Position numbers and translations under genes: made by a program. From positions 62,001 to 126,000 of the forward strand of contig NZ_SOAZ01000002.1 in assembly GCF_004364155.1 (NCBI RefSeq): a stretch of 64,000 nt of DNA, in the 5' to 3' direction. This DNA comes from Fonticella tunisiensis (lineage in GTDB: Bacteria > Bacillota > Clostridia > Clostridiales > Caloramatoraceae). The notes below the pieces were generated by a model. That model did not search any database. It had not been told where the DNA came from and saw nothing but the letters and a program-made list of their open reading frames with translations. Shown here one piece after another: positions 7,418-58,513 of the stretch (the stretch's first letter is position 1; the number at the start of each line of letters is the position of its first letter).

Positions 7418-7422
7418 TTAGT

Positions 7423-7690: not shown

Positions 7691-7692
7691 AT

Positions 7693-8411: not shown

Positions 8412-8508
8412 CATGATTAGTAAAGAGCAACTTTATAAATTCTTTATAATTGCCTGTTACATTAATAATCGTAGTAGAGATTAATAATGTTATGAAAGGA
8501 TGAGTTAA

Positions 8509-14098: not shown

Positions 14099-14305
14099 AT
14101 GGCACTTTCTAATCTATTTGGATGGAACAAAAAAGAGGCGTCTTCTGCTTGTGGTTCTGCCTGTGGAGCATCCGATAAGCCTGCTGAAGCTCCCGCTGCC
14201 TGTGGTGCTGCCGATGATGCTCCTGCTGCTTGCGGCACTGCTGACAAGCCGGAAGAAAAACCTGCCGCCTGCGGTTCTGCCTGCGGCGCTGGTGACAACA
14301 AATAA
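14099..14305 (+). CDS. ACGX-repeat peptide, precursor of a radical SAM-modified peptide
   Basis: 68 residues. A short leader-like start (MALSNLFGWNKKE) is followed by repeats of ACG-X: SACGSACGAS, AACGAAD, AACGTAD and AACGSACGAG, six Cys in all, spaced by Pro/Glu/Lys segments. This is the composition of the small Cys-rich peptides paired with radical SAM/SPASM proteins of the ACGX system. GGAGG lies 9 bases upstream. A hairpin and then the radical SAM gene follow. The structure and role of the mature product are not known to me. Confidence 0.82.
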   Translation: MALSNLFGWNKKEASSACGSACGASDKPAEAPAACGAADDAPAACGTADKPEEKPAACGSACGAGDNK

Positions 14306-14326
14306 TCCAGTCAACACGCCAACACA

Positions 14327-14354
14327 TCCCCGGCATAGCTGGTCTTGCCGGGGA
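14327..14354 (+). terminator. Hairpin between peptide and maturase genes
   Basis: Perfect 9-bp GC-rich stem TCCCCGGCA / TGCCGGGGA with a 10-base loop, followed by CTTTTAAAA. Probably a partial terminator letting precursor mRNA exceed enzyme mRNA, as seen in many peptide-modification operons. Confidence 0.65.
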
Positions 14355-14406
14355 CTTTTAAAATCATTCCGGCAATTGCCAGTTTTCATATAAAGAGAGG
14401 TAATCA

Positions 14407-15450
14407 ATGATGAAATAATATTTTGCTTTTCAGTGGCACATCACTGACGAGTGCGATCAGCGATGCAAACATTGTTATATCTTTTCGGAAGATAATGGAA
14501 AATATCTGGACTCTATGAACTGGGAGCAGATGGTGGACGTAGTGGACAACTGCTGTGATATGTGTGAAATGTACGACCGGCTGCCCTATTTTTATATTAC
14601 CGGCGGCGATCCAATCCTGCATCCCGATTTCTGGCGGCTGCTTGACCTTCTGAAAGGAAGGCGTATCCCTTTTACTATCCTCGGTAACCCATTCCATCTG
14701 AATGACGAGGTATGCAAAAGGTTGAAAGAATATGGATGCCAGAAATACCAGCTCTCCCTTGATGGGATGCGGGAAACCAATGACTGGTTCCGTAAACCCG
14801 GCTCATTTGATTGCACCCTTGAAAAAATTGACTGCATTAAAAAGGCCGGTATCCGCTCAGTCATCATGACTACGGTATCTGGAAAAAACATTAAGGAAAT
14901 CCCGGATATTATTGACATCGTTGTGGCACATAAGGTGGATGTGTTTGCTTTTGCACGGTACTGCCCGACCAGCGAGGAAAAGGACATAGGCATAACACCA
15001 CAGGAATATCGGAAACTGCTGGACGTGTGTTATCAAAAGTTTCAAAAATATAAAGAAGAAGGTTGCCAGACATACTTCAATCGAAAAGACCATCTATGGA
15101 CGCTCTATGAATACGAAAAAGGCATTTTTAAAATCCCGGAGAATACACAGGAGGGTATGATCTACGGCGGATGTAACTGTGGCAACTGCCATTTGACCAT
15201 TTTGCCTACCGGTGATTTATATGCATGCCGTCGCTTTGAAAGCAAGGTGGGTAATGTGTTTGAAGATCGAATTGCCGATGTGTGGGTAAGCGATTGTATG
15301 GAATCCTACCGTGACTATACTAAATTTAAAAAATGTTCCAAATGTGAATTGCTGGCTTGGTGCCGGGGATGCCCCGCCGTTGCTTATGGTACAACCAGGG
15401 ATTTTTACGAGGCTGATCCCCAATGTTGGAAGGAGGTTAAAGGAGCATGA
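14407..15450 (+). pseudogene. Radical SAM/SPASM protein, ACGX system, with in-frame stop at codon 4
   Basis: The gene begins at ATG 14407 after GAGAGG with 6-base spacing, but codon 4 (14416-14418) is TAA. The frame then continues YFAFQWHITDECDQRCKHCY, containing the radical SAM cluster motif CxxxCxxC at 14452-14475. No start codon lies between the stop and that motif; the first later ATG (14515) would lose it. The C-terminus has a full SPASM set (GGCNCGNC, YACRRFES, CSKCELLAWCRGCP, DPQCW). Normally such enzymes modify the adjacent Cys-rich peptide. Either a recent nonsense insertion or a sequence error. Confidence 0.85.
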
Positions 15451-16415
15451 TTCCAAAAACAATGAAAGCCGTTGTATTGTCCGGCATTACTGAAGCGGCC
15501 AATATAGAATTGACAGAATATCCTGTACCTAAAGTAAAACCTGGCTGGGTGCTGGTTAAGATAAAGGCATTTGGTCTGAACCATTCCGAAAAAATTTTGC
15601 GATTGTCGGAAATTCAGGAGGATTATATCAAAAAACCCATTATTCCTGGCATTGAATGTGTCGGAGAAATCGCAGATGCGTCAGACAGCGGCTTTGCTGT
15701 GGGACAAAAGGTAGTTGCTCTGATGGGAGGCATGGGCCGCAGCTTTAATGGAAGTTACGCTGAATATGCTTTATTACCGTCACATCACGTGTTTGCGGTT
15801 GAAACAAACTTGCCATGGGTTCAGCTTGGAGCAGTACCCGAAACTTATTATACCGCATGGGGATCGTTATTCGATTGCTTGCAGCTTAAACCAGAAGATA
15901 AGCTTCTTGTTAGAGGAGGAACCTGTGCTTTAGGCTATGCGGCGATTCAGCTTGCAAAGGCGCTGGGTTGTCGGGTGATTGCCACAACTCATCGGGAAAG
16001 CAAGCTGCCCCTGCTGAAAGAGGCAGATGAAGCCATTTTGGACACAGGTAAATTGGAAGGCACATTGTCCGGCGTGACAAAGGTGCTGGAATTGGTAGGA
16101 CCTAAGACCCTTCATGATACCCTGCGCTGTGTGGAAAAGGGCGGAATTGTCTGTAATACGGGGATTCTCGGTGGCGTCTATGCATTGAATGGCTTTGATC
16201 CCATCAAGTTTATCCCAAACAGCGTATATCTCACGGGATTTTACAGCAACTCGCCCACGCAGGAAACCATGAATGACATTTTCTCCTTTTTAGATATGCA
16301 CAATTTAATCCCCTGTATGGGAGAGGTGTATTCGTTTGCCGACATTGCAAAAGCTTGTGTGGATCTGGATAACGGGAAAGTGAACGGAAAGATTGTAGTG
16401 GAGGTATCGGAATGA
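15447..16415 (+). CDS. Medium-chain alcohol dehydrogenase / quinone oxidoreductase family protein
   Basis: 322 residues. N-terminal GroES-like fold (KAVVLSGI to PGIECVGEIADAS) and a Rossmann domain (RGGTCALGYAAIQLAKALGC, about residues 150-175) for NAD(P)H. It lacks the four structural-zinc cysteines, so it resembles the zinc-free quinone oxidoreductase branch. The start overlaps the radical SAM stop by four bases (ATGA), so it belongs to that operon. Substrate unknown. Confidence 0.87.
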   Translation: MIPKTMKAVVLSGITEAANIELTEYPVPKVKPGWVLVKIKAFGLNHSEKILRLSEIQEDYIKKPIIPGIECVGEIADASDSGFAVGQKVVALMGGMGRSFNGSYAEYALLPSHHVFAVETNLPWVQLGAVPETYYTAWGSLFDCLQLKPEDKLLVRGGTCALGYAAIQLAKALGCRVIATTHRESKLPLLKEADEAILDTGKLEGTLSGVTKVLELVGPKTLHDTLRCVEKGGIVCNTGILGGVYALNGFDPIKFIPNSVYLTGFYSNSPTQETMNDIFSFLDMHNLIPCMGEVYSFADIAKACVDLDNGKVNGKIVVEVSE

Positions 16416-16560
16416 ATTGAAAAAAGATCCCGCTAACAAAAATGTGTGTACTTTTCGTAACACTAACGGTATTGTATGATTGCATTGTAAATTGAATAAT
16501 CCATGAATTGCAATGAGCTAATTCTGCAGTTATAGAACGAATTTAAAGGAGGTGTACACG

Positions 16561-45331: not shown

Positions 45332-45643
45332 ATGAATCAATTTGGGATTTCAGAGGAATTGTTGAATAGTATAATATGTATTCTAAAGAAAAATAAATTT
45401 GTCAACTTAGCATACATATTTGGTTCACGTGCAAGAGGTGATTTTAGGGCAAATTCTGATATAGATATTTGCATTTTTGGAGAGTTGTCGCATATTGAAC
45501 TAAATTTGATAACTGATAAATTTTTAGAACTTAATACTCCTCTTGATTTTGATGTTGTAAACTTTGAGAAAATTAAGAAAGAGGAGTTTAAAAAAAGCAT
45601 TCTTAGAGATGGAGTGAAAATATATGAAAGAAAGAATATTTGA
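45332..45643 (+). CDS. MNT-type minimal nucleotidyltransferase (antitoxin)
   Basis: 103 residues. Nucleotidyltransferase motif GSRARGDFRANSDIDI (Gly-Ser at 31-32, metal-binding D43 and D45) and later Asp in LDFDVVNF. MNT proteins of HEPN/MNT pairs inactivate their HEPN partner by transferring nucleotides onto it. Overlaps the HEPN gene by 20 bases, so they are translationally coupled. Confidence 0.88.
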   Translation: MNQFGISEELLNSIICILKKNKFVNLAYIFGSRARGDFRANSDIDICIFGELSHIELNLITDKFLELNTPLDFDVVNFEKIKKEEFKKSILRDGVKIYERKNI

Positions 45644-46022
45644 GAAGTATAAGGATTATAAAAATGCGTTGTGTAGGTTAATTGAAGCGTTAAATTTGCA
45701 GGATATAAACGATGTAATTATTGATGGAATTATTCAAAGGTTTGAATTTACTTTTGAACTTAGTTGGAAACTTATGAAGGAATATTTAAAACATGAAGGA
45801 ATTGAGGTTAATAGCCCAAGGAGCACTATAAGGGAGGCGTTTTCAATTGGACTTATTGAAAATGGAGATAAGTGGATTAGTATGTTAACAGATAGAAATA
45901 AAACCTCACATATATATGATGAAGATGAGTCAAGAGAGATATATTTAAGTATTAAGAATATTTATGCAGATGAATTTAAAACCTTGCTAAACAAATTTGA
46001 TGAGATTGTTAAGGGACTGTGA
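45624..46022 (+). CDS. HEPN-domain protein (toxin, HI0074 family)
   Basis: 132 residues, all-helical. The RNase motif Rx4-6H is present: R91-NKTS-H96 in LTDRNKTSHIYDE. HEPN proteins with this motif cleave RNA in toxin-antitoxin and abortive infection systems. The partner MNT gene is immediately upstream. Followed 4 bases after its stop by the hairpin repeat copy 2. Confidence 0.88.
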   Translation: MKERIFEKYKDYKNALCRLIEALNLQDINDVIIDGIIQRFEFTFELSWKLMKEYLKHEGIEVNSPRSTIREAFSIGLIENGDKWISMLTDRNKTSHIYDEDESREIYLSIKNIYADEFKTLLNKFDEIVKGL

Positions 46023-46055: not shown

Positions 46056-46137
46056 TTAAATAATTGTCCATTTTTTAAAATTGTTATGCTATTATATATT
46101 TGTAACAATTTTCAGCTCAAGAAAAGTGGGGATGGGA

Positions 46138-49100
46138 ATGATAAATAAAATTGTTGATAATAAGCAGTATTTATTAGCAGGAGAAGTGCTAATGGAAAAC
46201 ATAGAAGAAGGAGCAAAGATTTCAATAGCTGCTGCATATTTTACCCTATATGCCTTTGAAGAACTAAAAAATGTAATGAAGAAGATAGATAAACTAAGGT
46301 TTATTTTTACAGAACCGGCATTTGTTAAAGTTGAAAATAAATATCTCAAGGAACAAGTTAAACAGAACGAAGAAAGAATACTTGGAATTGAAGAAGAGAA
46401 TAAATATAGAAACAAATTAACTACCCCTTACGTTGCAAGGGAATTTGCAAAATGGCTTCAAGAAAAGGCAGAGTTTAAATCAATAAGTGGAACTAAAATT
46501 GAAGGAAGTCTTTATCATATTGAAAATAAAGATAAAAACACATTGATAATTGGTGGAATTCCTTTTTCAACAACGGGATTAGGGATGAACAATACAACAA
46601 ATAATTTTATTGGAACAATATTAGAAGGAGAGGAAAAAAACAATCAATATATAAGATGGTTTGATAACATATGGAATAATAAGCATCTTCTTAAAGATGT
46701 TAAGGCGCAAATATTAAACAAGATTGAACTTTTATATAAAGATAATAATCCTGAATTTATTTATTTTGTTACCCTATATAACATATTTAAAGATTTTCTT
46801 GAAGATAATGAATCTAGAGAAAAAATACAATCAAAGACAGGATTTAAGGATACATTGATTTGGAAAAAACTATATAACTTTCAAAGGGATGCAGTTTTAG
46901 GTGCAATAAACAAAATTGAAACCTATGGTGGATGTATAATAGCTGATAGCGTTGGTCTTGGAAAGACATTTGAGGCTCTTGCAATAATAAAATACTACGA
47001 ACTTAAAAACTACAGGGTTCTTGTTTTAGCACCTAAAAAGCTTCGTGAAAACTGGCTAATTTTTAGACAAAATGATAGAAGAAACATATTCCTGCAGGAT
47101 AGATTTTCATATGATCTTTTAAATCACACAGACCTTTCAAGAAAGTTTGGTAAAAGTGGAGATATAGACTTAGAACATATCAACTGGGGTAATTATGATT
47201 TAGTTGTAATTGACGAGTCCCACAATTTCAGAAACAATGAAGCAAGAAATGACAGAGAAACAAGATATGAAAAATTAATGAGTGATATCATTAAATCTGG
47301 AGTAAAAACTAAGGTTTTAATGCTTTCGGCAACGCCTGTAAACAATAGGCTCCAAGATTTGAAAAACCAAATAGCATTCATAACAGAAGGAAAAGATAAT
47401 GCACTTGAGGATACTGCAAATATTCAAAGCATAAGCAAAACACTTCAAAAGGCCCAATCTCAATTTAATAAATGGTCAAGCCTTGATGAAGAGGAAAGAA
47501 CAACGGAAAAACTTTTAGAAATGCTGAATTGGGATTATTTTAAACTTCTTGATGCCCTTACAATTGCACGTTCAAGAAGACACATAGAAAAGTATTACAA
47601 CATAAAGGACTTGGGAGATTTCCCAATAAGAAATAAACCTAAAAATATAAAGGAATCAATAGATATTTATGACCAATTTCCACCGATAGATAAAATAAAC
47701 AACGATATATTAAGATTAAAACTTGCTGTTTATTCTCCAATGAAATATATTTTACCTCAAAAAGCTGAGTATTATAGCAAAAAATATGATACAGTTGTTA
47801 AGGGTGGTAAATCAGTATTTAGGCAGACCGACAGAGAAAACAGCTTGATATACTTAATGAAGGCAAGTCTGTTTAAAAGACTTGAAAGTTCTATTTATTC
47901 ATTTTCAAAAACAATTAGCAGCATAATACAAAACATAGAAATAACGCTTAATAAAATTGAACAAAGGCAAAGCACACTGGAAATCAATACTGAAAAAATA
48001 AGTGAAATTTCAGAGGAAGCAGAAGAACTATTTATAGGGGATAATGTAAAAATATTTATAAATGATATAGACCTTATAAAATGGAAGCAGGACCTTTTAT
48101 TTGATAAGGAAATATTAGAGATGCTGCTACGAAAATCCCAAAGCATTACCCCTGATAGGGATAAGAAACTTCAAAGGTTAAAAGAAGAAATAGAAAACAA
48201 AATTAAAAACCCTATAAATCCAGGCAATAGAAAAGTTTTAGTTTTTACTGCCTTTGCGGATACTGCTGAATATATTTATGAAAATATATCAAAGTGGGCA
48301 AAGGAAAAATTTAATATACATTCAGCCCTTGTTACAGGTTCAGTAAATCCAAAAACAACAATGAAGCTAAATAGGGTTGACTTTAACAACGTCCTTCTGC
48401 ACTTTTCACCTGTCTCAAAGGAAAGAGAAAAAATTTATCCAGAGATAAAAGAAGAAATCGATATTATGATTGCTACTGATTGTATTTCAGAAGGACAAAA
48501 CCTGCAGGATTGTGACTACCTAATAAATTATGATATCCACTGGAACCCGGTTAGAATAATCCAGCGTTTCGGCAGAATAGACAGAATTGGAAGCAAAAAT
48601 AAATACATTCAGCTTGTTAATTTCTGGCCATCTATGGAGCTTGATGAATATATCAACTTGATTGATAGGGTCAAAGAAAGAATGATGATGGTTGATGTTT
48701 CGGCAACCGGGGAAGAAAATATAATAGATGAAAAGAGCAATGAAATGAAGGATTTAGAATACAGAAGAAAGCAGCTATTAAGCCTTCAAAATGAAATAAT
48801 TGATTTAGAGGATATACAAGGAAATATCTCGCTAACTGATTTTACCCTTGATGATTTTAGGATGGATCTTTTGAATTATTTGGAAGAACATAAAAAAGAG
48901 GTTTTAGAAGCTCCAAAGGGAATATATGCGATAGTTAGAAATGAAAATACTAAATTAAATGAAGAGATTGAAAAGGGAGTTATTTTCTGCTTAAAGCAAA
49001 TAAAGTATAATGAAAGCAATAATCTTAAAAATCCGTTATATCCATATTACTTGGTTTATGTTAAGGACGATGGTGAAATCTCATACACTTATACAAATGT

Positions 49101-49374
49101 TAAAAAGATTCTGGATATATACCGTTCCTTGTGTTTTGGTAAAAAGGAAGTTTTTAAGGAATTAGTTGAAGAGGTTAATAAAGAAACTAAGTTTTGCAAA
49201 AATATGGACAAGTACAGGGAGCTTTTAAAAAGTGCAGCAGATGAAATAACGGGAAAAATAGAACAGGATGTTGCACTAAGCATATTTCAGCTAGGAAGCC
49301 TTAATGAACTTTTGGATGATAATAATATCGATTTAGAGGATTTCGAATTGATAACGTTTTTAATTATAAGGTGA
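46138..49374 (+). CDS. SNF2-type helicase with N-terminal PLD-like domain (defence-associated)
   Basis: 1078 residues. N-terminal phospholipase D-like fold (about 1-200; IGGIPFSTTGLGMNN) in which the HxK motif is degenerate (YHIENKD), so nuclease activity is uncertain. Helicase motifs: Walker A SVGLGKT (about 271-277), DESH box (359-362), LSATPVNNR, and motif VI IIQRFGRIDRIGS. Start at 46138, 6 bases after GGGG; ATG 46132 is an alternative. First gene of the operon leading to the type III restriction genes; such helicases are common in defence islands. Confidence 0.85.
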   Translation: MINKIVDNKQYLLAGEVLMENIEEGAKISIAAAYFTLYAFEELKNVMKKIDKLRFIFTEPAFVKVENKYLKEQVKQNEERILGIEEENKYRNKLTTPYVAREFAKWLQEKAEFKSISGTKIEGSLYHIENKDKNTLIIGGIPFSTTGLGMNNTTNNFIGTILEGEEKNNQYIRWFDNIWNNKHLLKDVKAQILNKIELLYKDNNPEFIYFVTLYNIFKDFLEDNESREKIQSKTGFKDTLIWKKLYNFQRDAVLGAINKIETYGGCIIADSVGLGKTFEALAIIKYYELKNYRVLVLAPKKLRENWLIFRQNDRRNIFLQDRFSYDLLNHTDLSRKFGKSGDIDLEHINWGNYDLVVIDESHNFRNNEARNDRETRYEKLMSDIIKSGVKTKVLMLSATPVNNRLQDLKNQIAFITEGKDNALEDTANIQSISKTLQKAQSQFNKWSSLDEEERTTEKLLEMLNWDYFKLLDALTIARSRRHIEKYYNIKDLGDFPIRNKPKNIKESIDIYDQFPPIDKINNDILRLKLAVYSPMKYILPQKAEYYSKKYDTVVKGGKSVFRQTDRENSLIYLMKASLFKRLESSIYSFSKTISSIIQNIEITLNKIEQRQSTLEINTEKISEISEEAEELFIGDNVKIFINDIDLIKWKQDLLFDKEILEMLLRKSQSITPDRDKKLQRLKEEIENKIKNPINPGNRKVLVFTAFADTAEYIYENISKWAKEKFNIHSALVTGSVNPKTTMKLNRVDFNNVLLHFSPVSKEREKIYPEIKEEIDIMIATDCISEGQNLQDCDYLINYDIHWNPVRIIQRFGRIDRIGSKNKYIQLVNFWPSMELDEYINLIDRVKERMMMVDVSATGEENIIDEKSNEMKDLEYRRKQLLSLQNEIIDLEDIQGNISLTDFTLDDFRMDLLNYLEEHKKEVLEAPKGIYAIVRNENTKLNEEIEKGVIFCLKQIKYNESNNLKNPLYPYYLVYVKDDGEISYTYTNVKKILDIYRSLCFGKKEVFKELVEEVNKETKFCKNMDKYRELLKSAADEITGKIEQDVALSIFQLGSLNELLDDNNIDLEDFELITFLIIR

Positions 49375-49379
49375 TGGGG

Positions 49380-50138
49380 ATGTGGGATTTTTTTAATTTT
49401 ATTGAACTTGATAAAAAGGTAAGGCCAGTTAATATAAAAATTGACAAGAAGACTATTTATGAAAATATTGACTTAAGCTCATCTGAAAGGAAAATCATAG
49501 CAGAATGTATTGAAAAGATTGAAATTGCCTATGTTTTAAACTCAAAAAACATAAACATTCAGCCATATTCTGATGAGAATATGAAATATGAATCTATTGC
49601 CTTTATCGGAATTAAAATGAGAAAAAAGGAAAAGGTTGAAAGGATTGCTGAGATTTTAAACTGTTCAATCCCCAACCCTATAGCTTTGGTTTTTGAATTT
49701 GAAGAAAGTATATTAATTGCAACTGCTCTGAAAAGACTAAGTAAAATAGATAAAAATAGGGCAGTTTTTGAAAAAATTAATTTAACTGATTGGATAAACC
49801 TAGATAATATTGATGACTTACAATTGCAATTTATAAATGCAATTAAAATGTCAAACCTTCCTTACACAGATTTTTATGAGTTCTATTCCGCAATTGATGA
49901 AGCTGTTTTCTTGATAAATAATTCTTGTATCGTAAAACAATTTAAAATATCACAAAACGAGGAAGAAAGAATCCACAAAAAGGATATTATCGAAAATATT
50001 AAGAGTCTTGAAGAAAAACTTGCAAAGATACAAATTAGGATAAACAAGGAAAAGCAGTTTAATAAGAAACTTGAGCTTAATATTGAAGCAAGTAAGATAA
50101 AGGATGATATAGAGGGGTTAAAAATGAACTTAAATTAG
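49380..50138 (+). CDS. DUF4391 protein
   Basis: About 252 residues. WDFFNFIELDKKVRPVNIKI, followed by an alpha/beta body and C-terminal coiled coil (about 205-252), is the DUF4391 pattern. No catalytic motif recognised. GTG 49371 and ATG 49374 and 49380 are possible starts; 49380 gives the best distance from AAGGTG. It is coupled to the helicase by overlap. The family recurs next to type III restriction genes and helicases. Confidence 0.8.
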   Translation: MWDFFNFIELDKKVRPVNIKIDKKTIYENIDLSSSERKIIAECIEKIEIAYVLNSKNINIQPYSDENMKYESIAFIGIKMRKKEKVERIAEILNCSIPNPIALVFEFEESILIATALKRLSKIDKNRAVFEKINLTDWINLDNIDDLQLQFINAIKMSNLPYTDFYEFYSAIDEAVFLINNSCIVKQFKISQNEEERIHKKDIIENIKSLEEKLAKIQIRINKEKQFNKKLELNIEASKIKDDIEGLKMNLN

Positions 50139-50152: not shown

Positions 50153-51040
50153 ATGATTTTTGAATTATATTCAAAACGACAAAAAAGGTTAAATCAAATA
50201 GAAGATATTTTTGTATATGATATTATACCGGAGAAGTTAAGGCATCAAATCATTCATATATGGAATGATTCAATTAATTATGAGCTATGGGAAGAAATAC
50301 ATAATATTATGGCAAGAGAATTAGGTGTTCCACAATTATCTAAATATGGTAATAGTGCAAAAGAAAAATCTATTTGTTTTTTTATTCAAGCTAATACAGA
50401 AGAGGCATTAGACTTTGTAGAGCTAACTTTTTTTACTATAGATAAAGTTATAAGGGATTTGCCATATTTTAAAAAATCAGAATTAAAAATGGATGCTGAT
50501 AGTGCTATTGAAGAACTAAATTATAGATTTATAGAAAATGGCATAGGTTATGAGTTTGTAAATGGAAAAATTATAAAAATAGATTCCAAAATAGTTCATA
50601 ATGAAATAGTAAAACCAGCTATAAAGTTACTTTATGAAGAGGAATTTGATGGTGCAAATAACGAATTTTTGAAAGCTTATGAGCATTATAGAAGAGGAAA
50701 TTATAAAGAAAGTATAGTCGAAGCTTTGAAATCATTTGAAAGTACTATGAAAACGATATGCAGAAGATGTAATATTATTTATGAGGAACATTATACAGCT
50801 TCTAAATTAATAAGTATCTTGATTAATAATGGGATAATACCATCATATTTGAATAATCATTTTACAGGATTGAGGACTACATTGGAATCAGGATTGCCAA
50901 CTTTACGCAACAAAACAAGTGGACACGGTCAAGGAGAAAATCTAATAGAAATACCAAGTTATTTTGCATCGTATGCGATTAATTTGACTGCAACAAATAT
51001 TATTTTTCTAATTAATGCGTTTAAAAATTATCAAAAATAG
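50153..51040 (+). CDS. AbiJ/STM4504-like protein
   Basis: 295 residues, no membrane segments. The first half (LYSKRQKRLNQIEDIFVYDI, LRHQIIHIWND) resembles the AbiJ N-terminal domain (AbiJ_NTD4), the C-terminal half (AYEHYRRGNYKESIVEALKS, LPTLRNKTSGHGQGE) the HEPN-like tail. RNKTSGHG contains R...H in the range of HEPN RNase motifs. Probably an abortive-infection component. GGGGG ribosome site upstream. Confidence 0.7.
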   Translation: MIFELYSKRQKRLNQIEDIFVYDIIPEKLRHQIIHIWNDSINYELWEEIHNIMARELGVPQLSKYGNSAKEKSICFFIQANTEEALDFVELTFFTIDKVIRDLPYFKKSELKMDADSAIEELNYRFIENGIGYEFVNGKIIKIDSKIVHNEIVKPAIKLLYEEEFDGANNEFLKAYEHYRRGNYKESIVEALKSFESTMKTICRRCNIIYEEHYTASKLISILINNGIIPSYLNNHFTGLRTTLESGLPTLRNKTSGHGQGENLIEIPSYFASYAINLTATNIIFLINAFKNYQK

Positions 51041-51193
51041 GAAATAATAGGCAAAAACATATTTGAGTTTATTTATATTAAAAAAGGAAAATAAATGCAT
51101 TTTTAAAAGAATTAATTATAGTTTACATATATTTCAAATACTATTTATTATTATAGGTTTATCATAAATAAATTTTAGGAAAGGAAGATAAAT

Positions 51194-53326
51194 ATGCAGT
51201 CTAATGATGAATTCTTAGATAATATAAATAAATTAATAATATCATTGAAGCTTGCACAGAGAGCGGAACTAATTAGTGAAGAAAATAATAAAAATATTAT
51301 TGATAAATTATATGTGGACCCTCTTCCTAACGAGGCAATATTTAAACAGGTAATTGAAGATTCAACTGTTTTTTTAATAGGGAGAAAAGGAACTGGAAAA
51401 TCAACTATATTTGCAAGAGCACAGGAATACTTTAGACATCAAGATAAAGAAATATCAGCTTATATAGATGTTAAGACTCTATATGGTAAATCAATTTCTC
51501 AAGATATTAAATTAGAATCACATAATGAATATATACATAAATTACTATTATTACAGAATTTTGTCTTACAAGTTCTAAGTGAATTAATAAGTGAACTTGA
51601 GAAAAACTTAGAAAATAAATCTACCATAGGTAAGATGCTTAAGAAAAGTAATTATACAAAAACAAAATTGCGCTTAACAGAACTTAAGGAAAGAATAAAA
51701 AAACCTGAATTTACAGATGTTAGTCTTATAGTTCAAAGTTCAAATCAATTAAAAGGGATAGTGAGTGTAGAGAAAGCCAATGATGTTAATTTTCGAATGA
51801 AAGGAAATATATCTAAGACAGATTCTTCGCTTGAAACAGCATATGATGGAGTTATGGGTATAAAAAATAGTTCGTCTGATGAAGAAATGAGGCAATTTTC
51901 ATCTATATTATTAAGACATTTCAGTATCAAGGATTATATGGAAAGTATATCTGAAGAATTAAAATCATTAGGTATAAATAAGACGCACATATTTTTAGAT
52001 GATTTTTCTGAGATAGATTTTGAAGCACAACAAGTTTTTGTTAATACTATTTTAGCCCCATTAAACAATTGGTCAGAAAAGTTTTTCAGGTTTAAAATAG
52101 GGTGCTATCCAAAAAGAATTTTTTACGGTGATATTGATAAGGGTAAGATAAATGAAATTAACTTAGATTATTATAATATTTATAAAGTTAAGGATTTGCC
52201 AGAACTTGAAGAAAAAGCTATTGATTTTTTGGACAGGCTCCTATTAAAAAGATTTAAGTTTTATCTTGATGAGCATCCTTCTATAATATTTCAAATAGAT
52301 AATAAAGACAATACATGGGAGAGTTATAAAGAATTATTATTTCAAATATCAATGAATATACCACGTGTTCTTGGATATATACTTGATTATTGTTATAAGA
52401 GTGCATTAATTTATGGTAAAAAGATTACAAAAGCATTGCTAGAAGAAGCTGCACAAAAATATTATGAAAATCAAGTGGCCTACTATTTCGAAAAAATTAA
52501 TTATTTAGCAGAGGCGTTCAATGAAAACCTTGATAGGCATGCACAACAAATTCTTATGAATAAAATTGTTGAAAAAGCAAAAGAGTTAAAGACTAAACTT
52601 GCAAATGAAGATACTCAACTATTTAAAGATATACCTAAGAATAAAATTCCAACAAGCCATTTTTATATAAAAAAAGGATATGAAAAGTTTTTCTATTCAT
52701 TAGAATTAAATTACTTTGTTACAAAATATTATGAACAATCTGACAGAGATGGAGTGCCAATAAGCATTTATTCTATAAATTATGGATTATGTAAGGCTAA
52801 TAATATATTATTTGGAAGACCTAAAGGTGATTCTAAATACAGAAAATACTATATTTCGAGACATTTTGATTATAATGAATTCTTAGAGAAATATTTATTA
52901 GGACAAACTAAGTTTATTTGTAACAAATGTGGAGCAATCTATGATTTTAACGAATACGATATTTTGAGCAAGATTGATATGTTATGCTATAAAGGTTGTA
53001 AAGAAAAAGGTTTTATTGAAGAAAAATACTATTTTGAAAATAAAGATTTATTTAATAACGTAGAAAAAGAAAATTTATTATCAGAAATTGAGCTAGATAT
53101 TTTACATTTATTATATCAGAATGAAGATTTAGACTTACATGCTGCATTAATAGCAAAAGAATTAGATTGTTCTTATCAATTAATAGCTAAACGAGCTACT
53201 CTTCTTGAAGAAAAAGGACTACTGACGAAGAATCAGGTAAATGTTGATGGCATTTCAAGGAAGGTATATAAAATTACAGATAAAGCAAAAAAAATATATT
53301 TTGAAAATAGTAATAAGAATTATTAA
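51194..53326 (+). CDS. P-loop ATPase, Sll1717-like, with C-terminal zinc ribbon and winged helix
   Basis: 710 residues. Walker A GRKGTGKST (about 63-71), Walker B-like IFLDDF (about 266-271) with a following Glu. C-terminal zinc-ribbon CNKCG ... CYKGC (about 575-600) and a winged helix (ELDILHLLYQNEDL ... LLEEKGLLTKN). The family belongs to predicted defence NTPases that sense a trigger and act on nucleic acid or protein. GGAAAGGAAG upstream. Its own promoter is possible in the 150-bp gap before it. Confidence 0.75.
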   Translation: MQSNDEFLDNINKLIISLKLAQRAELISEENNKNIIDKLYVDPLPNEAIFKQVIEDSTVFLIGRKGTGKSTIFARAQEYFRHQDKEISAYIDVKTLYGKSISQDIKLESHNEYIHKLLLLQNFVLQVLSELISELEKNLENKSTIGKMLKKSNYTKTKLRLTELKERIKKPEFTDVSLIVQSSNQLKGIVSVEKANDVNFRMKGNISKTDSSLETAYDGVMGIKNSSSDEEMRQFSSILLRHFSIKDYMESISEELKSLGINKTHIFLDDFSEIDFEAQQVFVNTILAPLNNWSEKFFRFKIGCYPKRIFYGDIDKGKINEINLDYYNIYKVKDLPELEEKAIDFLDRLLLKRFKFYLDEHPSIIFQIDNKDNTWESYKELLFQISMNIPRVLGYILDYCYKSALIYGKKITKALLEEAAQKYYENQVAYYFEKINYLAEAFNENLDRHAQQILMNKIVEKAKELKTKLANEDTQLFKDIPKNKIPTSHFYIKKGYEKFFYSLELNYFVTKYYEQSDRDGVPISIYSINYGLCKANNILFGRPKGDSKYRKYYISRHFDYNEFLEKYLLGQTKFICNKCGAIYDFNEYDILSKIDMLCYKGCKEKGFIEEKYYFENKDLFNNVEKENLLSEIELDILHLLYQNEDLDLHAALIAKELDCSYQLIAKRATLLEEKGLLTKNQVNVDGISRKVYKITDKAKKIYFENSNKNY

Positions 53327-53757
53327 TATTGAATCTCTTCATATGAATTGAGTAGTAATGAAAGTTAAACAGTGATTATATAGATTTTATTTTAAATGAT
53401 GCGATAGCTGAATATTATAATTTTATAAGTTATTTCCATATTATACAACTTAATTCGAAGTTATAATAAATACATATGAACTTTATGTTATATAACTCAC
53501 GTTTTGCTAAGGACATAATTTTTTAATTATTTTATGATTTATGCGAAATCAATACTTATAATGGAATAAATAAAAATATTAACTGGTGTTATATTTTATG
53601 CTTAAAAGTTGTTAGGAGAAATTCTGTATAATTATAAGCTTCACATTAGTAAATAACTTTTAGCGAAATATGAGATATAATATAATTCTTGCTCTATTTT
53701 TAAACAGTAATTTAGTTAGTAATCTAGGTATTACAAAATTCAAAATGAGGTGGTATA
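53327..53757. other. AT-rich gap inside the defence operon
   Basis: No intact gene. A plus-strand frame at about 53359-53463 reads KLNSDYIDFILNDAIAEYYN then FISYFHIIQLNSKL-stop without a start: possibly the tail of a lost gene. Very AT-rich; the mod promoter must lie here. Confidence 0.35.
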
Positions 53758-55581
53758 ATGCAAAAAATGGATGGAAAATCAATGGATTTAACAAAGGAAA
53801 ATATAGAGGCTTTAAAAAAGCTCTTTCCTGAGGTTGTAACTGAAGGGAAAATAGATTTTGAAAAATTAAAGGTAATCCTTGGAGAAAACATAGAAAAATC
53901 AAATGAAAGATATGAATTTACATGGAATGGTAAAACTGCAGCAATGAAACTTGCCCAAACTCCTTCAATGGGAACGCTAAGACCAGATAGGGAAAGCAGC
54001 AAAAATTGGGATTCAACAGATAACCTTTACATAGAAGGAGATAACCTCGAGGTTTTAAAGCTTCTTCAAAAGTCCTACTTTGGAAAGATAAAGATGATCT
54101 ATATCGATCCTCCATACAATACAGGAAATGATTTTGTCTATAAGGATGATTTTAGGGACAATATTAAAAACTATAAAGAAATAACCAAGCAAACGACAAA
54201 AGCAAACCCTGAAACCAGCGGAAGATACCATACCGATTGGCTTAACATGATGTATCCAAGGCTTAAGCTTGCAAGAAACCTTTTGACTGAGGATGGAGTT
54301 ATTTTTATAAGTATAGATGACAATGAAGTTGCCAATTTGAAGAAGATTTGTGATGAGATTTTTGGCGAGGAAAATTTTATTGCTAATATTATATGGGAAA
54401 GGTCATTTTCTCCTGTAAACCTTAAAAAACATTTTTCAATAAATCATGATTATATTATTTGTTATTCAAAAAATATAGATTTAACTATATGTAATGGATT
54501 GAAAAGAACTGATGAAGCAGATAATAGATATAGAAATCCTGACAATGATTCAAGAGGTCCATGGATGTCAGATAATCTAACAGTTGGACCAGCAATACCT
54601 GAAAAAGTTTATGAAATAACTACCCCAAGCGGTAGAAAGGTTCTACCTCCTAATGGATACTGTTGGCGACTTACGAAAGAAAGATTTGAAGAATTTTTAG
54701 CTGATAATCGAATTTGGTTTGGAGAGGATGGTAATAATGTACCTCGGATAAAACGTTTCTTGTCAGAAGTTAAAGAAGGTATTACACCAATGACTATTTG
54801 GAAATATACGGATGTTGGACACTCCCAAGAGGCAAAACAAAAGTTAAAAGATTTGTTTGATGGAAAAGCATATTTCGATTATCCAAAATCAATAGAGTTA
54901 ATTAAAAGATTGTTAGTACTTTACTCTAATAGTGATTCCCTCATCCTCGACTTCTTCTCAGGCTCTGCAACAACAGCCCATGCAGTTATGCAGCTTAATG
55001 CAGAGGATGGGGGAAATAGAAAATTCATAATGGTTCAGCTTCCAGAGCCAACTCCTGAGAATTCAGAGGCCTATAAGGCAGGGTATAAAAATATTTGCGA
55101 GATAGGAAAGGAAAGAATAAGACGAGCTGGGGAAAAGATTAAAGCCGAGACTGGAAAAGAGGACTTGGATATAGGATTTAAGGTGTTTAAGCTTGATGAA
55201 TCCAATATCAAAACATGGGATCCTGATTATGACAATCTTAAAGCAACACTTGAGGACATGGCAAACAATATTAAAGAAGGCAGAACAAAAGAAGATGTTC
55301 TGTTTGAAATAATATTGAAGTTGGGATTAGAGTTAAATGTTCCAATCGATGAGATAAAAGTTAATGATAAAGTAATATATAATGTTGGAAAAGGAGCTTT
55401 AATTGTTTGTCTTGAGGATGATATAACAGAGGATATATTAAATGAAATACCAAAGCACAAATCTGAATTTATGGAAACAAGAGTTGTGTTTAAGGATAAT
55501 GCCTTTAAAAAGGATGCTGATAAATTAAATGCCGTTCAAAATTTAAAACAACATGGTATCCTTGATGTAAGGAGTGTTTAA
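53758..55581 (+). CDS. mod: Type III restriction-modification methyltransferase, Mod
   Basis: 607 residues. DPPYNTG (about 117-123) precedes the SAM-binding FxGxG (DFFSGSATTAHA, about 398-409), the beta-class order of N6-adenine methyltransferases. Between them is a variable target-recognition region (about 200-340). It binds the recognition site and modifies adenine, and forms the complex with Res. GAGGTGG upstream; overlaps the next gene's region. Confidence 0.93.
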   Translation: MQKMDGKSMDLTKENIEALKKLFPEVVTEGKIDFEKLKVILGENIEKSNERYEFTWNGKTAAMKLAQTPSMGTLRPDRESSKNWDSTDNLYIEGDNLEVLKLLQKSYFGKIKMIYIDPPYNTGNDFVYKDDFRDNIKNYKEITKQTTKANPETSGRYHTDWLNMMYPRLKLARNLLTEDGVIFISIDDNEVANLKKICDEIFGEENFIANIIWERSFSPVNLKKHFSINHDYIICYSKNIDLTICNGLKRTDEADNRYRNPDNDSRGPWMSDNLTVGPAIPEKVYEITTPSGRKVLPPNGYCWRLTKERFEEFLADNRIWFGEDGNNVPRIKRFLSEVKEGITPMTIWKYTDVGHSQEAKQKLKDLFDGKAYFDYPKSIELIKRLLVLYSNSDSLILDFFSGSATTAHAVMQLNAEDGGNRKFIMVQLPEPTPENSEAYKAGYKNICEIGKERIRRAGEKIKAETGKEDLDIGFKVFKLDESNIKTWDPDYDNLKATLEDMANNIKEGRTKEDVLFEIILKLGLELNVPIDEIKVNDKVIYNVGKGALIVCLEDDITEDILNEIPKHKSEFMETRVVFKDNAFKKDADKLNAVQNLKQHGILDVRSV

Positions 55582-55582
55582 A

Positions 55583-58513
55583 ATGAAGCTGCAGTTTAAA
55601 TCTGACTTAAAATATCAGCTTGAGGCTGTAATGTCAGTTGTTGATATATTTAGTGGACAACCAGTAAAGCAGTCAAACTTTACTGTTATAACAGGTGAAG
55701 TTTTTGGAATAGAACAAAGGGACCTTGGAATAGGAAACAGGCTTGAACTTACACAGGATGAAATACTAAAAAACCTTCAGCAGGTTCAGATGAGAAATGG
55801 CCTTCCAAGAAGTGAAAAATTGGAGGGAATGAATTTTACAGTTGAGATGGAAACGGGAACGGGTAAAACCTATGTATATCTTAGAACGATTTATGAACTT
55901 AATAAAAATTACGGCTTTACCAAGTTTATAGTGGTTGTTCCGTCGGTTGCAATAAGGGAAGGGGTATATAAGACAATTCAAATAACAAAGGAGCATTTTG
56001 ATGAGCTGTATGATAATGCTCCAGTAGATTATTTTATATATGATTCTTCAAAACTTGATCAGGTTAGAAACTTTGCTACATCACCCAATATTCAAATTAT
56101 GATAATAAACATTGATGCATTTAGGAAAAGCTTTGTTGATCCTGAAAAAGAGGACAAGGCGAATATTATTCACAGGCCAAATGATAGACTTAATGGATTA
56201 AGACCAATCGATTATATAAAAGAAACGAATCCAATAGTTATAATAGACGAACCGCAAAGCGTTGATACAACGGATAAATCAAAGGAAGCAATAGCATCAT
56301 TAAACCCTATATGCACATTAAGGTATTCTGCAACCCATGTTGATAAATACAACATGGTTTATAGGCTTGATGCTGTAGATGCCTATGAGCAAAAGCTGGT
56401 TAAAAGAATAGAAGTTTTATCAGTTAAATCGGAGGAAGCTTTTAATTTGCCCTATATAAAGCTTTTAGAAGTAGGCGAGAGAAAGGCAAAGATTGAATTA
56501 GATGTTGAAAGCAGAGGAAAAGTTAGAAGAACTTCTAAAACGGTTAAACTTGGAGATGATTTGTTTGACATTTCCGGTGAGAGGGAAATTTATAGGGGAT
56601 ATAAGGTTGAAGATATAAGCTGGGGCGAAGGAGAAGAGTATATCGAGATAAACGGAATAAGAATCGATCTAAATCAATCCGTTGGCGATATCGACGATGA
56701 TGAAATAAAAAGGTTTATGATAAGAAAAACAATTGAAGAGCATCTTGACAAGGAACTTAAACTAAGGCATAAAGGAATAAAGGTTTTAAGCCTTTTCTTC
56801 ATAGATAGGGTTGCAAATTATAGGGACTATGATGGGGAAGGAAACCCTGTAAAGGGGAAATATGCCAAAATGTTTGAAGAGGAGTACAGGAAGCTTATAA
56901 AAAAGCATAAATATAACACCCTTTTCAAGGATATTGATGTTGATGCGGAAATCGAAAGAATTCACAACGGCTACTTTGCACAGGATAAGAAGGGAAGGCT
57001 TAAGGATACAAAGGGTAATACAGAGGCTGATAATGACGTATATAACCTTATTATGAGGGATAAGGAAAGACTTTTAAGCCTTGACGAACCTTTAAGATTT
57101 ATATTTTCCCATTCAGCTTTAAGGGAAGGATGGGATAACCCTAATGTGTTTCAAATTTGTACTCTTAAAGATTCCTCTGGAACGTATGTTAGTAGAAGGC
57201 AGGAAATAGGAAGGGGTTTAAGGCTTGCCGTTGATAATAGTGGAAAAAGAATTGAGGATCCTAATATAAATACATTAACTGTTATGGCAAACGAGTCATA
57301 TAAGGAATTTGTTGAGAAGCTCCAAACTGAAATTGAAGAGGATACGGGAATTAGATTTGGTGTTGTTGAAAAGCACATTTTTGCAGGATTATCCTTTACA
57401 AATGAAGATGGTGAAGCTGTTCCATTGGGCTATGAAAAATCTGAAAAACTATATGATTTGCTAACTAAAAGAGGATATATTGATAAAGATGGCAAGATGA
57501 CAGCTGTTTTAAAGGAAGCCCTTGAAAATGAACAGGTCGAATTATCCTATGAATTCAATAACTGGTATCCTGCAATAATAAGGGAGCTCAAACATAGAGC
57601 AAGCAGATTAAAGATAAAGGATGCAAACAAAAAGACAAAGGTTCAGCTTAATAAGGCTGTTTTGGAAAGCGAAGATTTTAAAGCTTTATGGGATAAGATA
57701 AAGCAAAAAACCATATATTCACTTGATTTTGATAGTGAAAAGCTAATTGAAAAATGCGTTGAAAATATAATGAGGATGCCCAAAATACATGCATCTCAAT
57801 TAGTAAGCCAAAAGGCAAGAATAAACATCGAAAGGGATATGGGGGTATCTGAGCAAGTTGTCAGGGAAGATGTTGAGGAAGTAAATATTAAAAATAACTT
57901 ACCTGATATTTTAACTGACCTTCAGAACAAAACAAGTCTTACAAGAAAAACTCTTGTTGAAATTTTAATAAAGTCTAATAGACTTGAAGATTTTAAAAGA
58001 AATCCTCAAAAATTTATAGAACAAGTAGCTGAGATTATAAAAAGGGAATTAAGGCTTTTTGTTGCTGATGGAATAAAATATCATAAAATAAATGACTATT
58101 ATGCAGTAGAATTATTCAACAGTGAAGAACTCCTTGCTTATTTGAATGAAAATGCAGTTAAAAGCAAAAAATCACCCTTCGATCATGTTTTATACGATTC
58201 AGATATAGAGGAGAGCTTTGCAAAGAAATTTGAGAATGATGAAAGGGTTAAGGTTTATGTAAAGCTTCCAGGCTGGTTTAAAATAGACACACCCCTTGGC
58301 TCATATAACCCAGACTGGGCCGTTGTAATAGATAAGGATGGAGAAGAAAAATTATATTTTGTTGTTGAAACAAAAGGAACTGATATATTTGAACTTTTAA
58401 GACCAGAGGAGCAGCTTAAGATAAAATGTGCAGAAAAGCACTTTAAAGAGTTAGGAACAGAGGTGGAATTTAGAGCACCTGTAAAGGATGCAGAAAGATT
58501 TATGCGTGTATAA
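55583..58513 (+). CDS. res: Type III restriction endonuclease subunit, Res
   Basis: 976 residues. SF2 helicase Walker A METGTGKTY (89-97), DEPQ box (222-225), QEIGRGLRLAVD motif VI. C-terminal PD-(D/E)xK nuclease YNPDW (D911) with ETKG (E929, K931). ATG 55583 follows AAGGAG with 8-base spacing and sits one base after the Mod stop. Cleaves DNA at a fixed distance from unmodified sites facing head-to-head. All catalytic residues are intact. Confidence 0.93.
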   Translation: MKLQFKSDLKYQLEAVMSVVDIFSGQPVKQSNFTVITGEVFGIEQRDLGIGNRLELTQDEILKNLQQVQMRNGLPRSEKLEGMNFTVEMETGTGKTYVYLRTIYELNKNYGFTKFIVVVPSVAIREGVYKTIQITKEHFDELYDNAPVDYFIYDSSKLDQVRNFATSPNIQIMIINIDAFRKSFVDPEKEDKANIIHRPNDRLNGLRPIDYIKETNPIVIIDEPQSVDTTDKSKEAIASLNPICTLRYSATHVDKYNMVYRLDAVDAYEQKLVKRIEVLSVKSEEAFNLPYIKLLEVGERKAKIELDVESRGKVRRTSKTVKLGDDLFDISGEREIYRGYKVEDISWGEGEEYIEINGIRIDLNQSVGDIDDDEIKRFMIRKTIEEHLDKELKLRHKGIKVLSLFFIDRVANYRDYDGEGNPVKGKYAKMFEEEYRKLIKKHKYNTLFKDIDVDAEIERIHNGYFAQDKKGRLKDTKGNTEADNDVYNLIMRDKERLLSLDEPLRFIFSHSALREGWDNPNVFQICTLKDSSGTYVSRRQEIGRGLRLAVDNSGKRIEDPNINTLTVMANESYKEFVEKLQTEIEEDTGIRFGVVEKHIFAGLSFTNEDGEAVPLGYEKSEKLYDLLTKRGYIDKDGKMTAVLKEALENEQVELSYEFNNWYPAIIRELKHRASRLKIKDANKKTKVQLNKAVLESEDFKALWDKIKQKTIYSLDFDSEKLIEKCVENIMRMPKIHASQLVSQKARINIERDMGVSEQVVREDVEEVNIKNNLPDILTDLQNKTSLTRKTLVEILIKSNRLEDFKRNPQKFIEQVAEIIKRELRLFVADGIKYHKINDYYAVELFNSEELLAYLNENAVKSKKSPFDHVLYDSDIEESFAKKFENDERVKVYVKLPGWFKIDTPLGSYNPDWAVVIDKDGEEKLYFVVETKGTDIFELLRPEEQLKIKCAEKHFKELGTEVEFRAPVKDAERFMRV

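Follow-up and report, generated by a model that had tools for sequence, protein, structure and literature searches.

Two defence-type genes as probable cargo in an exchangeable junction of a conserved type III restriction operon

Introduction

Cargo in restriction operons is, as such, already known. Excerpts of one paper (PMC3710099) describe PrrC as nested in the hsd locus of a type Ic system, which holds it inactive, and place some solo AbiJ proteins in operons with restriction-modification (R-M) systems. The same excerpts define the HEPN motif as Rx4-6H and name CBY_0614 as an example of AbiJ-NTD4. In the open-licence part of the literature, we found, among the matches listed, no account of a helicase-DUF4391-type III operon with cargo slots; DUF4391 and STM4504 each appeared in a single paper, and Sll1717 did not appear.

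Here we analyze a 64,000-nucleotide stretch of DNA from Fonticella tunisiensis (contig NZ_SOAZ01000002.1, positions 62,001 to 126,000; "the window"), in which two defence-type genes, referred to below as AbiJ and the ATPase, lie between DUF4391 and mod (Table 1). We conclude from sequence comparison that the two genes are very probably cargo, inserted in an exchangeable DUF4391-mod junction of a conserved restriction operon. They are most likely independent defence genes carried by the operon.

Table 1. Features of the operon and its cargo (window coordinates)
Feature	Coordinates	Strand	Basis or remark
PLD(HKD)+SNF2-type helicase, core gene 1	46081..49374	+	PADLOC C3a139 "HKD+Snf2" 446.2 bits; Pfam SNF2-rel_dom, Helicase_C
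DUF4391 (PF14335), core gene 2	49371..50138	+	158.9 bits vs cut-off 29.9
STM4504/CBY_0614-family protein (AbiJ-NTD4 + HEPN), 295 aa, cargo gene 1	50153..51040	+	NF046078, PF18863, PF22809
Spacer AbiJ-ATPase, 153 bp	51041..51193	.	GC 0.157
AAA+ ATPase, 710 aa, cargo gene 2	51194..53326	+	P-loop GRKGTGKS at residue 63; Walker-B-like IFLDD at 266
Stretch without recognised gene, 431 bp	53327..53757	.	GC 0.213; AGGTGG ribosome-binding motif for mod at 3' end
Type III DNA methyltransferase mod, core gene 3	53758..55581	+	PADLOC MTase_III 818.7 bits
Type III restriction endonuclease res, core gene 4	55574..58513	+	PADLOC REase_III 1160.9 bits; PF19778 RE_endonuc

Results

The conserved gene order of the operon is, as predicted from sequence, PLD+SNF2 helicase, DUF4391, type III mod and res, and this four-gene core also occurs on plasmids. 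The helicase gene and DUF4391 share 4 nt at their junction, and mod and res overlap by 8 nt. Membership in type III R-M is indicated by Pfam matches (PF01555, PF04851 and PF19778), by DPPY in Mod and by GTGKT in Res. The helicase was found in 18/20 stretches picked by DUF4391; the remaining two (L043 and L045) are without a helicase of PLD+SNF2 type in the stretch. DUF4391 followed the helicase in 74 of 79 other loci picked by the helicase, and in three of the five without DUF4391 the stored DNA stops within 100 nt. All fractions reported here describe our sample, for which 20 of the 28 genome matches outside the window's genome were fetched at length and 80 of at least 581 confirmed stretches were returned. 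Locus L052 was removed as a duplicate of L032 by matching record features, the sequences themselves not being compared. Open reading frames (ORFs) came from a simple longest-ORF caller, with which frameshifts may split genes.

We found that the DUF4391-mod junction is usually empty. The gap was <150 bp in 63/85 sampled loci and ≥300 bp in 20/85, with two between. AbiJ occupied the slot in the window only (1/85), and the ATPase did so in 2/85. The second ATPase locus is L093, where the gene stands behind a different protein (DUF4062), and the two ATPase rows are far apart on the helicase tree. These counts exclude the case that the two genes are always present in the same place. The nearest two helicases have an empty slot, with 4 nt between DUF4391 and mod in L032 and 13 nt in L054. 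L032 is a same-family relative whose helicase is 76% identical and whose mod is 80% identical over the first 157 residues. Other cargo at the same place was also found, e.g., a YhcG nuclease, TIR, PLD, GmrSD_N and a zeta toxin. A sequence-only reading of the window had proposed that the two genes were inserted as cargo into a helicase-DUF4391-Mod-Res operon, and the empty and otherwise filled slots in relatives support this.

Few of the slot's occupants are related to each other. Besides the window's own, 7/20 occupied slots hold a protein whose domain is clearly of nuclease, toxin, TIR or GmrSD type, and 5/20 hold ORF6N, a second DUF4391, DUF4062 with the ATPase, a UvrD-like helicase or DUF2130. 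In 6/20 (L038, L040, L042, L082, L085 and L131) the scanned cargo had no Pfam match; L044 was outside the scan. When ten cargo proteins (eight from the DUF4391-mod slot, two from between mod and res) were searched with PADLOC, a match was obtained for the UvrD-like one alone. The operon's direction was shared by 29/30 cargo ORFs of 90 aa or longer, and some long gaps contain no co-oriented ORF of 90 aa.

Occupied and empty slots are scattered over the helicase tree without pattern. At least 18 changes of state were counted over 20 occupied and 62 empty rows, and the observed 18 is not fewer than in 200 label shuffles (14-20 changes, mean 17.97), on a FastTree topology with 20 open forks among 94 inner branches and a long-branch warning. 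L057, whose broken helicase produces one artefact helicase-DUF4391 gap, was excluded from the tree.

Turnover was visible between close relatives. L058 and L059, with helicases 99% identical, carry different cargo in both of two slots. Their DUF4391-mod slots hold ORF6N and AAA-ATPase_like+PDDEXK_9, respectively, and L059 keeps a 163-bp relic of the ORF6N gene. A second cargo slot sits between mod and res; here the same two loci hold a YhcG-family protein (by clustering) and a Schlafen-type protein, respectively, the breakpoints coinciding with the mod stop and the res start. In L069 and L089 (95%), the mod-res gap is 13 and 774 bp. In a search limited to repeats of at least 14 nt, none could be placed at insertion borders, those found being AT-rich, and no recombinase gene was detected among ten window proteins scanned with Pfam.

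The two genes had been described as more AT-rich than their neighbours, and they are. GC content is 0.266 for AbiJ and 0.260 for the ATPase, compared to 0.304 (SNF2), 0.277 (DUF4391), 0.334 (mod) and 0.341 (res). The difference is clearest at third codon positions (GC3), with 0.156 for AbiJ and 0.172 for the ATPase versus 0.258-0.282 in the four core genes; DUF4391, nearly as AT-rich overall as the cargo, differs there. Pooled GC3 was 168/1005 for cargo and 788/2938 for core (Fisher p = 4.4e-11, a guide only because codons were treated as independent). AbiJ and the ATPase have the two lowest GC3 values among 39 window ORFs (≥200 aa), and the step in GC3 is present at both cargo borders. Codon distance to host ORFs was high for AbiJ (0.247), but the ATPase had an ordinary value (0.199); the median of the other ORFs in the window was 0.181, with values up to 0.284. 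We rejected composition as sufficient proof of insertion because the core genes of L032 are equally AT-rich (SNF2 0.271, DUF4391 0.239).

The cargo is followed by a stretch noted earlier as an empty 430 bp, which indeed has no recognised gene over its 431 bp; a 53-aa ORF at 53670 and two antisense ORFs span the mod start. It is the longest cargo-to-mod gap among 19 loci with co-oriented cargo and therefore is not typical of the slot. A decayed gene was considered, and BLAST and tblastn against the fetched loci and cargo gave nothing convincing: the best scores (blastn E 0.02; tblastn E 0.009 over 24 residues), obtained in AT-rich DNA with filters off, were taken as chance. Rfam gave no match with E up to 1, and no terminator-like site was found in the gap. 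A TATAAT at 53754-53759 was not taken as the mod promoter because it overlaps the mod start codon; promoter-like sites numbered 27, versus 31.3 in shuffles.

Cargo gene 1 is predicted, from its profile matches and modelled fold, to encode an RNase with a HEPN domain. Its label as AbiJ-like was confirmed by the NCBIfam profile NF046078 for STM4504/CBY_0614 (319.6 bits, E 1.6e-95, cut-off 150), and PF18863 (AbiJ_NTD4) and PF22809 (DUF7014) both scored above cut-off. The motif RNKTSGHGQG occupies residues 252-261 and contains the HEPN Rx4-6H motif as RNKTSGH; R-N-(x)3-4-H is kept in 35/35 sequences, counting the window's. The motif loop (251-260) has pLDDT <50 in the model. The C-terminal domain matches the HEPN fold of 1o3u with a VIA-align Z of 14.0 (117 residues, 3.5 Å), to be read with the caution that helical bundles reach Z ~13 through common arrangement. 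HEPN-titled structures among the first rows were 1o3u, 3o10, 1wol, 2hsb and 4nqf, and AbiA (8oz7) gave Z 10.3. Foldseek alone was weak (best E 0.15), a search of solved structures by sequence returned none, and the PHROGs match was to an unnamed family.

Cargo gene 2 is, as judged from motifs and an AlphaFold model (pLDDT 75.4), an AAA+ ATPase that resembles Orc1/Cdc6 and TnsC and carries a winged helix. Walker A, Walker B and fold agree with the Orc1/Cdc6-TnsC-STAND type, a common fold that shows no function. Fold matches included Orc1/Cdc6, MuB, TnsC and MarR-type domains. The best Foldseek match was 1fnn_A (E 2.6e-4), which VIA-align placed at Z 13.8 (3.4 Å, 249 residues), with MuB at 13.0 and TnsC at 12.9. 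The protein also has a cysteine cluster (C576/C579/C598/C602), and its winged helix is C-terminal; all four cysteines are invariant in 6 sequences, and C579 varies in a second set of 8. Of the earlier name "Sll1717-type ATPase", the ATPase part holds and the Sll1717 part is a loose fit (NF047389, 36.8 bits with a cut-off of 75). MADS Mad8 was rejected as an identity (E 0.033). Among solved structures, its sequence matched an ABC transporter and, weakly, a winged helix, and nothing more, and PHROGs had no family for this protein.

Discussion

Most of the relatives examined have nothing in the junction and some have other genes there, a pattern suggesting that microbes exchange accessory defence genes within operons of this kind. 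Based on these comparisons we propose that the DUF4391-mod junction takes in and replaces accessory genes, and that the window lineage would have gained two independent defence-type genes there, co-directional with the operon. Gene 1 may encode an endoribonuclease of HEPN type that responds to infection by halting growth or attacking RNA, with its N-terminal domain sensing or regulating. Gene 2 could specify an AAA+ protein that binds DNA and uses ATP to work as a sensor or switch, by itself or together with some partner. Both genes might gain from the operon's expression and mobility and provide an extra layer behind DNA restriction. We would give these proposals on the endoribonuclease, the sensor or switch and the shared operon benefit roughly even chances. 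That exchange proceeds by recombination at the gene junction and not by a transposon is a more tentative suggestion.

AbiJ and the ATPase might instead form one sensor-effector unit that was gained together. They are adjacent and alike in GC3, and the ATPase of L093 is also behind another protein, as if the effector had been exchanged. However, a 153-bp spacer of very low GC lies between them, and AbiJ adjoins only the window's own among 12 full- or near-full-length ATPase copies (upstream DNA is cut off in L160, L161 and L164). In viral contigs, 29 stretches of about 5-9 kb surrounding relatives of AbiJ contained no ATPase. AbiJ matches were found in 340 of 72,556 plasmid records and the ATPase in one, and on an Enterobacter plasmid the ATPase comes after a replication gene with no partner annotated, in a gene table that is possibly incomplete. 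In the copies examined elsewhere, then, neither gene was seen with the other, and the two do not give the impression of a fixed unit. On this pattern of occurrence we think a single system quite unlikely. A second possibility is that the restriction complex keeps the HEPN RNase, the ATPase or both inactive until a restriction-blocking phage frees them, as with PrrC and EcoprrI. The HEPN domain of AbiJ belongs to the superfamily of the PrrC nuclease, and the excerpts cited above supply precedents both in PrrC and in the AbiJ solos of R-M operons. In addition, cargo is nearly always co-oriented, and 3/12 ATPase copies (window, L093 and L159) are beside mod-res genes. Against this, AbiJ and ATPase relatives occur on plasmids and phage-like contigs without R-M genes named nearby in the stretches read (L179, an AbiJ locus, has a weak Mod match); the mostly unrelated occupants argue against one conserved interface; and PrrC, the one described embedded guard found, belongs to a type I locus. 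We regard such guarding as unlikely.

The two genes could also be old operon members that were lost in most lineages. Parsimony does not fix the direction of change on every branch, loss in L032 and L054 is compatible with the data, and both genes are read in the operon direction. Their rarity in the slot, the distance between the two ATPase rows, the different genes that fill the slot elsewhere and the GC3 step at both borders largely refute this, and we consider it highly improbable. Finally, the junction might only tolerate co-oriented insertions, with the genes doing nothing for this host. The diversity and turnover of cargo, including the ORF6N relic, and the several occupants without a known domain are consistent with neutral insertion. 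Both window genes, however, are open with catalytic motifs kept, and nuclease, toxin or TIR families account for several occupants; neutrality seems very unlikely to us. Insertion of independent defence genes as cargo is the reading we prefer.

A bolder version, to which we give little credence, is that the DUF4391-mod and mod-res junctions are dedicated docking slots. Single effectors (HEPN RNases, TIR, YhcG nucleases, GmrSD, Fic, Schlafen-type and others) would be exchanged one gene at a time, and all would be armed by a common signal of the restriction complex, for example when it is inhibited or when its helicase is active. More generally, what began as one unusual operon becomes a case of a testable pattern: in a widespread restriction operon, accessory genes, a good many being of defence type, come and go at the internal junctions. 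The slots may be useful for finding new defence genes because some occupants have no known domain. They also raise the question of why immune genes sit in restriction operons, whether for expression, for mobility or for guarding the restriction enzyme.

Compared to known systems, the AbiJ protein agrees with the STM4504/CBY_0614 family in its score, its motif and the order of its domains. It differs in location: wherever the neighbourhood of another copy was read, that copy lay on a plasmid, a phage-like element or, once, a chromosome contig, and this operon was absent. The Sll1717-family P-loop ATPases match the window ATPase weakly over residues 30-466, and its cysteine cluster and winged helix come after the matched region. 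The helicase resembles the SNF2 helicases of DISARM and DpdE by profile but is far below the curated cut-offs (DrmD 148.2 vs 610 bits; DpdE 102 vs 500), with 65.1 bits to the DrmA profile. No separate DrmA or DrmB protein was found among eight window proteins scanned with PADLOC (for the helicase, the best 25 of 39 families), and we rejected membership in DISARM. Like the window, the EcoprrI type Ic locus has a HEPN RNase gene, prrC, nested in an R-M operon, according to excerpts of PMC3710099 and PMC12707154. The window locus is type III and not type I, and its protein has AbiJ-NTD4 in place of the SbcC-like NTPase domain of PrrC. PrrC is controlled by the restriction complex; for AbiJ of the window such control would be hypothetical. 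Mod and Res are clear members of the type III R-M families (Table 1). To these the window adds, in conserved order, an upstream PLD+SNF2 helicase and DUF4391, and some loci of this type hold accessory genes between the subunits.

Genes and base composition of the operon

The operon encodes a PLD+SNF2 helicase, DUF4391, an STM4504/CBY_0614 protein (AbiJ-NTD4 + DUF7014; AbiJ below), an ATPase, and type III Mod and Res. A sequence-only reading had proposed that the AbiJ and ATPase genes were inserted as cargo into a helicase-DUF4391-mod-res core. Coordinates, gene order and an empty stretch of 431 bp were as it described. Its label "Sll1717-type" holds for the ATPase only as a distant match to the Sll1717 profile. 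The AT-richness it noted in the two genes is clearer still at third codon positions: GC3 is 0.156 (AbiJ) and 0.172 (ATPase), compared with 0.258-0.282 for helicase, DUF4391, mod and res. No other window ORF of at least 200 aa (39 in total) has a GC3 as low as these two, and the step is located at the DUF4391/AbiJ and ATPase/mod borders. DUF4391 groups with the core by composition (GC3 0.275).

Upstream of the helicase ORF, and 58 bp short of it, ends a gene pair: an MntA-like nucleotidyltransferase with an HI0074-like partner. The MntA-like and HI0074-like profiles had no match in the other 99 loci of our sample. The pair may represent additional cargo, at the 5' edge of the operon.

Coordinates of features in the window and in fetched stretches of other genomes, plasmids and viral contigs (L numbers)
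Stretch	Positions	Strand	Feature
Window	45332-46022		MntA-like/HI0074-like pair
Window	50153-51040	+	AbiJ
Window	51194-53326	+	ATPase
L067 (Methanobrevibacter)	14105-16468		AAA_13 protein gene
L093	13928-17474		DUF4062 and ATPase genes
L153 (Enterobacter 6-kb plasmid)	1901-4986		ATPase and replication genes
L154 (phage KSF1)	2501-2782		ATPase fragment
L159 (viral contig)	685-9380		Mod to NB-ARC series
L200 (E. coli MB64)	8252-8416		mads1

The DUF4391-mod junction is empty in most sampled relatives and variably filled in others

Searching the class with PF14335 (DUF4391) matched 28 of 391 genomes including the window's own (27 above the cut-off); within the family, the window DUF4391 protein as query matched 2 of 17, again including its own. 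We fetched 20 of the 28 DUF4391 matches in other genomes at length. A helicase-alignment scan of genome contigs found a relative encoded in at least 581 of 591 stretches, and 80 loci were taken; L052 was left out as a presumed duplicate of L032. The resulting 100 loci, including the window, were searched with profiles built from the window proteins. The helicase was found in 98, helicase and DUF4391 in 93, and mod and res were reached in 85 and 79, counts that are partly fixed by choosing loci for similarity to the window helicase or PF14335, so that fractions describe this sample. Of the 20 stretches picked by DUF4391, 18 have the helicase; of the 79 loci picked by helicase, 74 have DUF4391, and three of the other five end less than 100 nt from the helicase.

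Comparing these homologous islands, the check suggested for the insertion claim, yielded both relatives with an empty junction and relatives with other cargo. Of 85 DUF4391-mod gaps, 63 were shorter than 150 bp, 20 measured at least 300 bp and 2 were intermediate. Of 79 mod-res gaps, 45 were shorter than 150 bp and 34 measured at least 300 bp, and some of these long gaps had no clear gene. Between helicase and DUF4391, 6 of 93 gaps reached 300 bp; one was a broken helicase and one had no ORF of 90 aa. In the nearest helicase relatives, L032 (76%, same family) and L054 (61%), DUF4391 and mod are 4 and 13 nt apart, and the direction of change in the window lineage rests on these two empty neighbours. 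An AGGTGG motif precedes mod in both the window and L032, indicating that the insert left the mod translation start in place.

By Pfam, occupants of the DUF4391-mod slot include YhcG nucleases (L039, L086), an AAA-ATPase_like+PDDEXK_9 protein (L059), a PLD protein (L087), GmrSD_N (L101), TIR (L046), zeta toxin (L094), a UvrD-like helicase (L113), DUF2130 (L117), a second DUF4391 (L063), ORF6N on the opposite strand (L058), and, in L093, the ATPase preceded by DUF4062. No scanned cargo protein had a Pfam match in six occupied loci, and L044 was outside the scan. Ten representatives from the mod-res slot included RhuM, Schlafen-type AlbA_2, BRO-N, AIG2, Fic, Abi_2 and AAA_21 proteins; two had no match. 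When the 82 cargo ORFs of 90 aa or more were clustered all against all, 49 remained singletons, and the largest groups had five members.

Cargo was co-oriented with the operon for 29/30 ORFs in the DUF4391-mod slot and 36/39 in the mod-res slot. Nineteen loci have co-oriented cargo, and in 17 of them the first cargo gene starts -25 to +37 nt from the DUF4391 stop; among these 19, the 431 nt ahead of mod in the window is the longest cargo-to-mod gap. In L067, mod-like ORFs flank a 787-aa AAA_13 protein (PF13166, 402 bits), so an insertion there may have hit mod itself.

Cargo turnover

We mapped slot state (20 rows occupied, 62 empty) onto a FastTree phylogeny of 97 helicases, where it required at least 18 changes. 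Shuffled labels required 14-20 (mean 17.97, 200 draws), so no phylogenetic signal was detectable in slot occupancy. Turnover is seen most directly in a pair of near-identical MAG contigs (L058, L059). Their helicases are 99% identical and their longer aligned DNA pieces 86-98%, and cargo differs in both slots. The mod-res swap runs from the mod stop codon to the res start codon. Of the ORF6N gene in L058, a relic of 163 bp survives in L059. Another pair (L069/L089, 95%) has a one-gene difference between mod and res.

AbiJ and the ATPase are probably independent genes

AbiJ relatives were found in 340 of 72,556 plasmid records and 29 viral contigs, for instance on a phage-like plasmid of Paraclostridium, where the gene is flanked by capsid and scaffolding genes. 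Of 381 genomes of the class, 2 exceeded the AbiJ family cut-off, one being the window's own. The ATPase is rarer: it was on one plasmid and six viral contigs, and 9 of 381 genomes of the class matched at E 0.001 or better, near full length in three besides the window's.

The ATPase was absent from all 29 viral stretches around AbiJ relatives. Of 12 full- or near-full-length ATPase copies, AbiJ was seen beside the window copy only (upstream DNA is cut off in L160, L161 and L164), and mod-res genes adjoin three (window, L093, L159). In L093 the ATPase occupies the DUF4391-mod slot with a DUF4062 protein, not AbiJ, ahead of it. These occurrences are better explained by two independent genes, each using the slot, than by one system.

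We also noted three other settings of the ATPase. In L159 the ATPase stands in series after Mod and a ResIII protein and before a trypsin-NB-ARC protein, possibly a small defence island. On L153 the ATPase gene overlaps the end of a replication gene by 4 nt, an unusual site for a defence-type gene. Both records of the filamentous Vibrio phage KSF1 have an N-terminal ATPase fragment of 95 residues (43% identical), which spans small hypothetical ORFs.

Predicted functions of AbiJ and the ATPase

The function of each cargo gene is a prediction. AbiJ carries the motif R-N-(x)3-4-H in 35/35 sequences. Its AlphaFold model has pLDDT 84.6 and pTM 0.55, with the motif loop (251-260) below 50. The C-terminal domain aligned to HEPN domains (1o3u, Z 14.0, 3.5 A, 117 residues; AbiA 8oz7, Z 10.3; HepT, Z ~9), although helical bundles can attain comparable Z through common arrangement; Foldseek alone was weak (best E 0.15). 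The HEPN case rests on motif, family and fold jointly. Excerpts of PMC3710099 state that Rx4-6H residues are required for RNase activity in tested superfamily members, give CBY_0614 as an example of AbiJ-NTD4, and place some AbiJ solos in R-M operons. Based on these points, we suggest that AbiJ would act as an endoribonuclease in abortive infection.

The ATPase model (pLDDT 75.4; residues 172-228 unreliable) has an AAA+ core that resembles Cdc6/Orc1, MuB and TnsC (Z 12.9-14.2); residues 625-710 form a winged helix of MarR-like fold. Four of four cysteines are invariant in a set of six sequences and three of four in a set of eight, which suggests a zinc ribbon. The protein is a predicted DNA-binding ATP switch.

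Spread of the core operon

Record titles from the helicase scan place the core gene order across bacteria of several phyla, and the complete order is on one archaeal plasmid. Six DUF4391 plasmids found by tblastn all have helicase-DUF4391-mod; the DUF4391-mod gap is 16-67 nt on five, and on the Methanomethylovorans plasmid a 245-aa gene fills it. A related helicase is encoded by 88 of 5,426 E. coli genomes. Matches covering 80% or more of one operon type were found in 23 genomes, with a transposase gene inside the matched span in three; DUF4391 and mod are 44 and 96 nt apart in two examples. In CFT073, which has another type, they are separated by 586 nt that include a 291-nt ORF on the opposite strand.

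The operons of a Providencia plasmid (L194) and a Shewanella plasmid (L195), hosts from different bacterial orders, are 96.3% identical over 92% of length, a sign that the operon itself is mobile. Directly upstream of the helicase in E. coli MB64 is a small helix-turn-helix gene annotated mads1 (MADS system), with no further MADS gene annotated within 20 kb; several other loci have small HTH-like ORFs ahead of the helicase.

Comparison with known systems

Excerpts of published work describe helicase-based R-M-like systems of different composition (PMC12839542) and R-M operons that include HKD domains or SWI2/SNF2 helicases (PMC2292703). Among the matches listed in searches of open-licence literature, we found no account of a helicase-DUF4391-mod-res operon with exchangeable cargo. 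There is a precedent in PrrC, described in parts of PMC3710099 and PMC12707154 as a HEPN nuclease within a type Ic R-M locus. In the window, a predicted HEPN nuclease is likewise nested in an R-M operon, here of type III.
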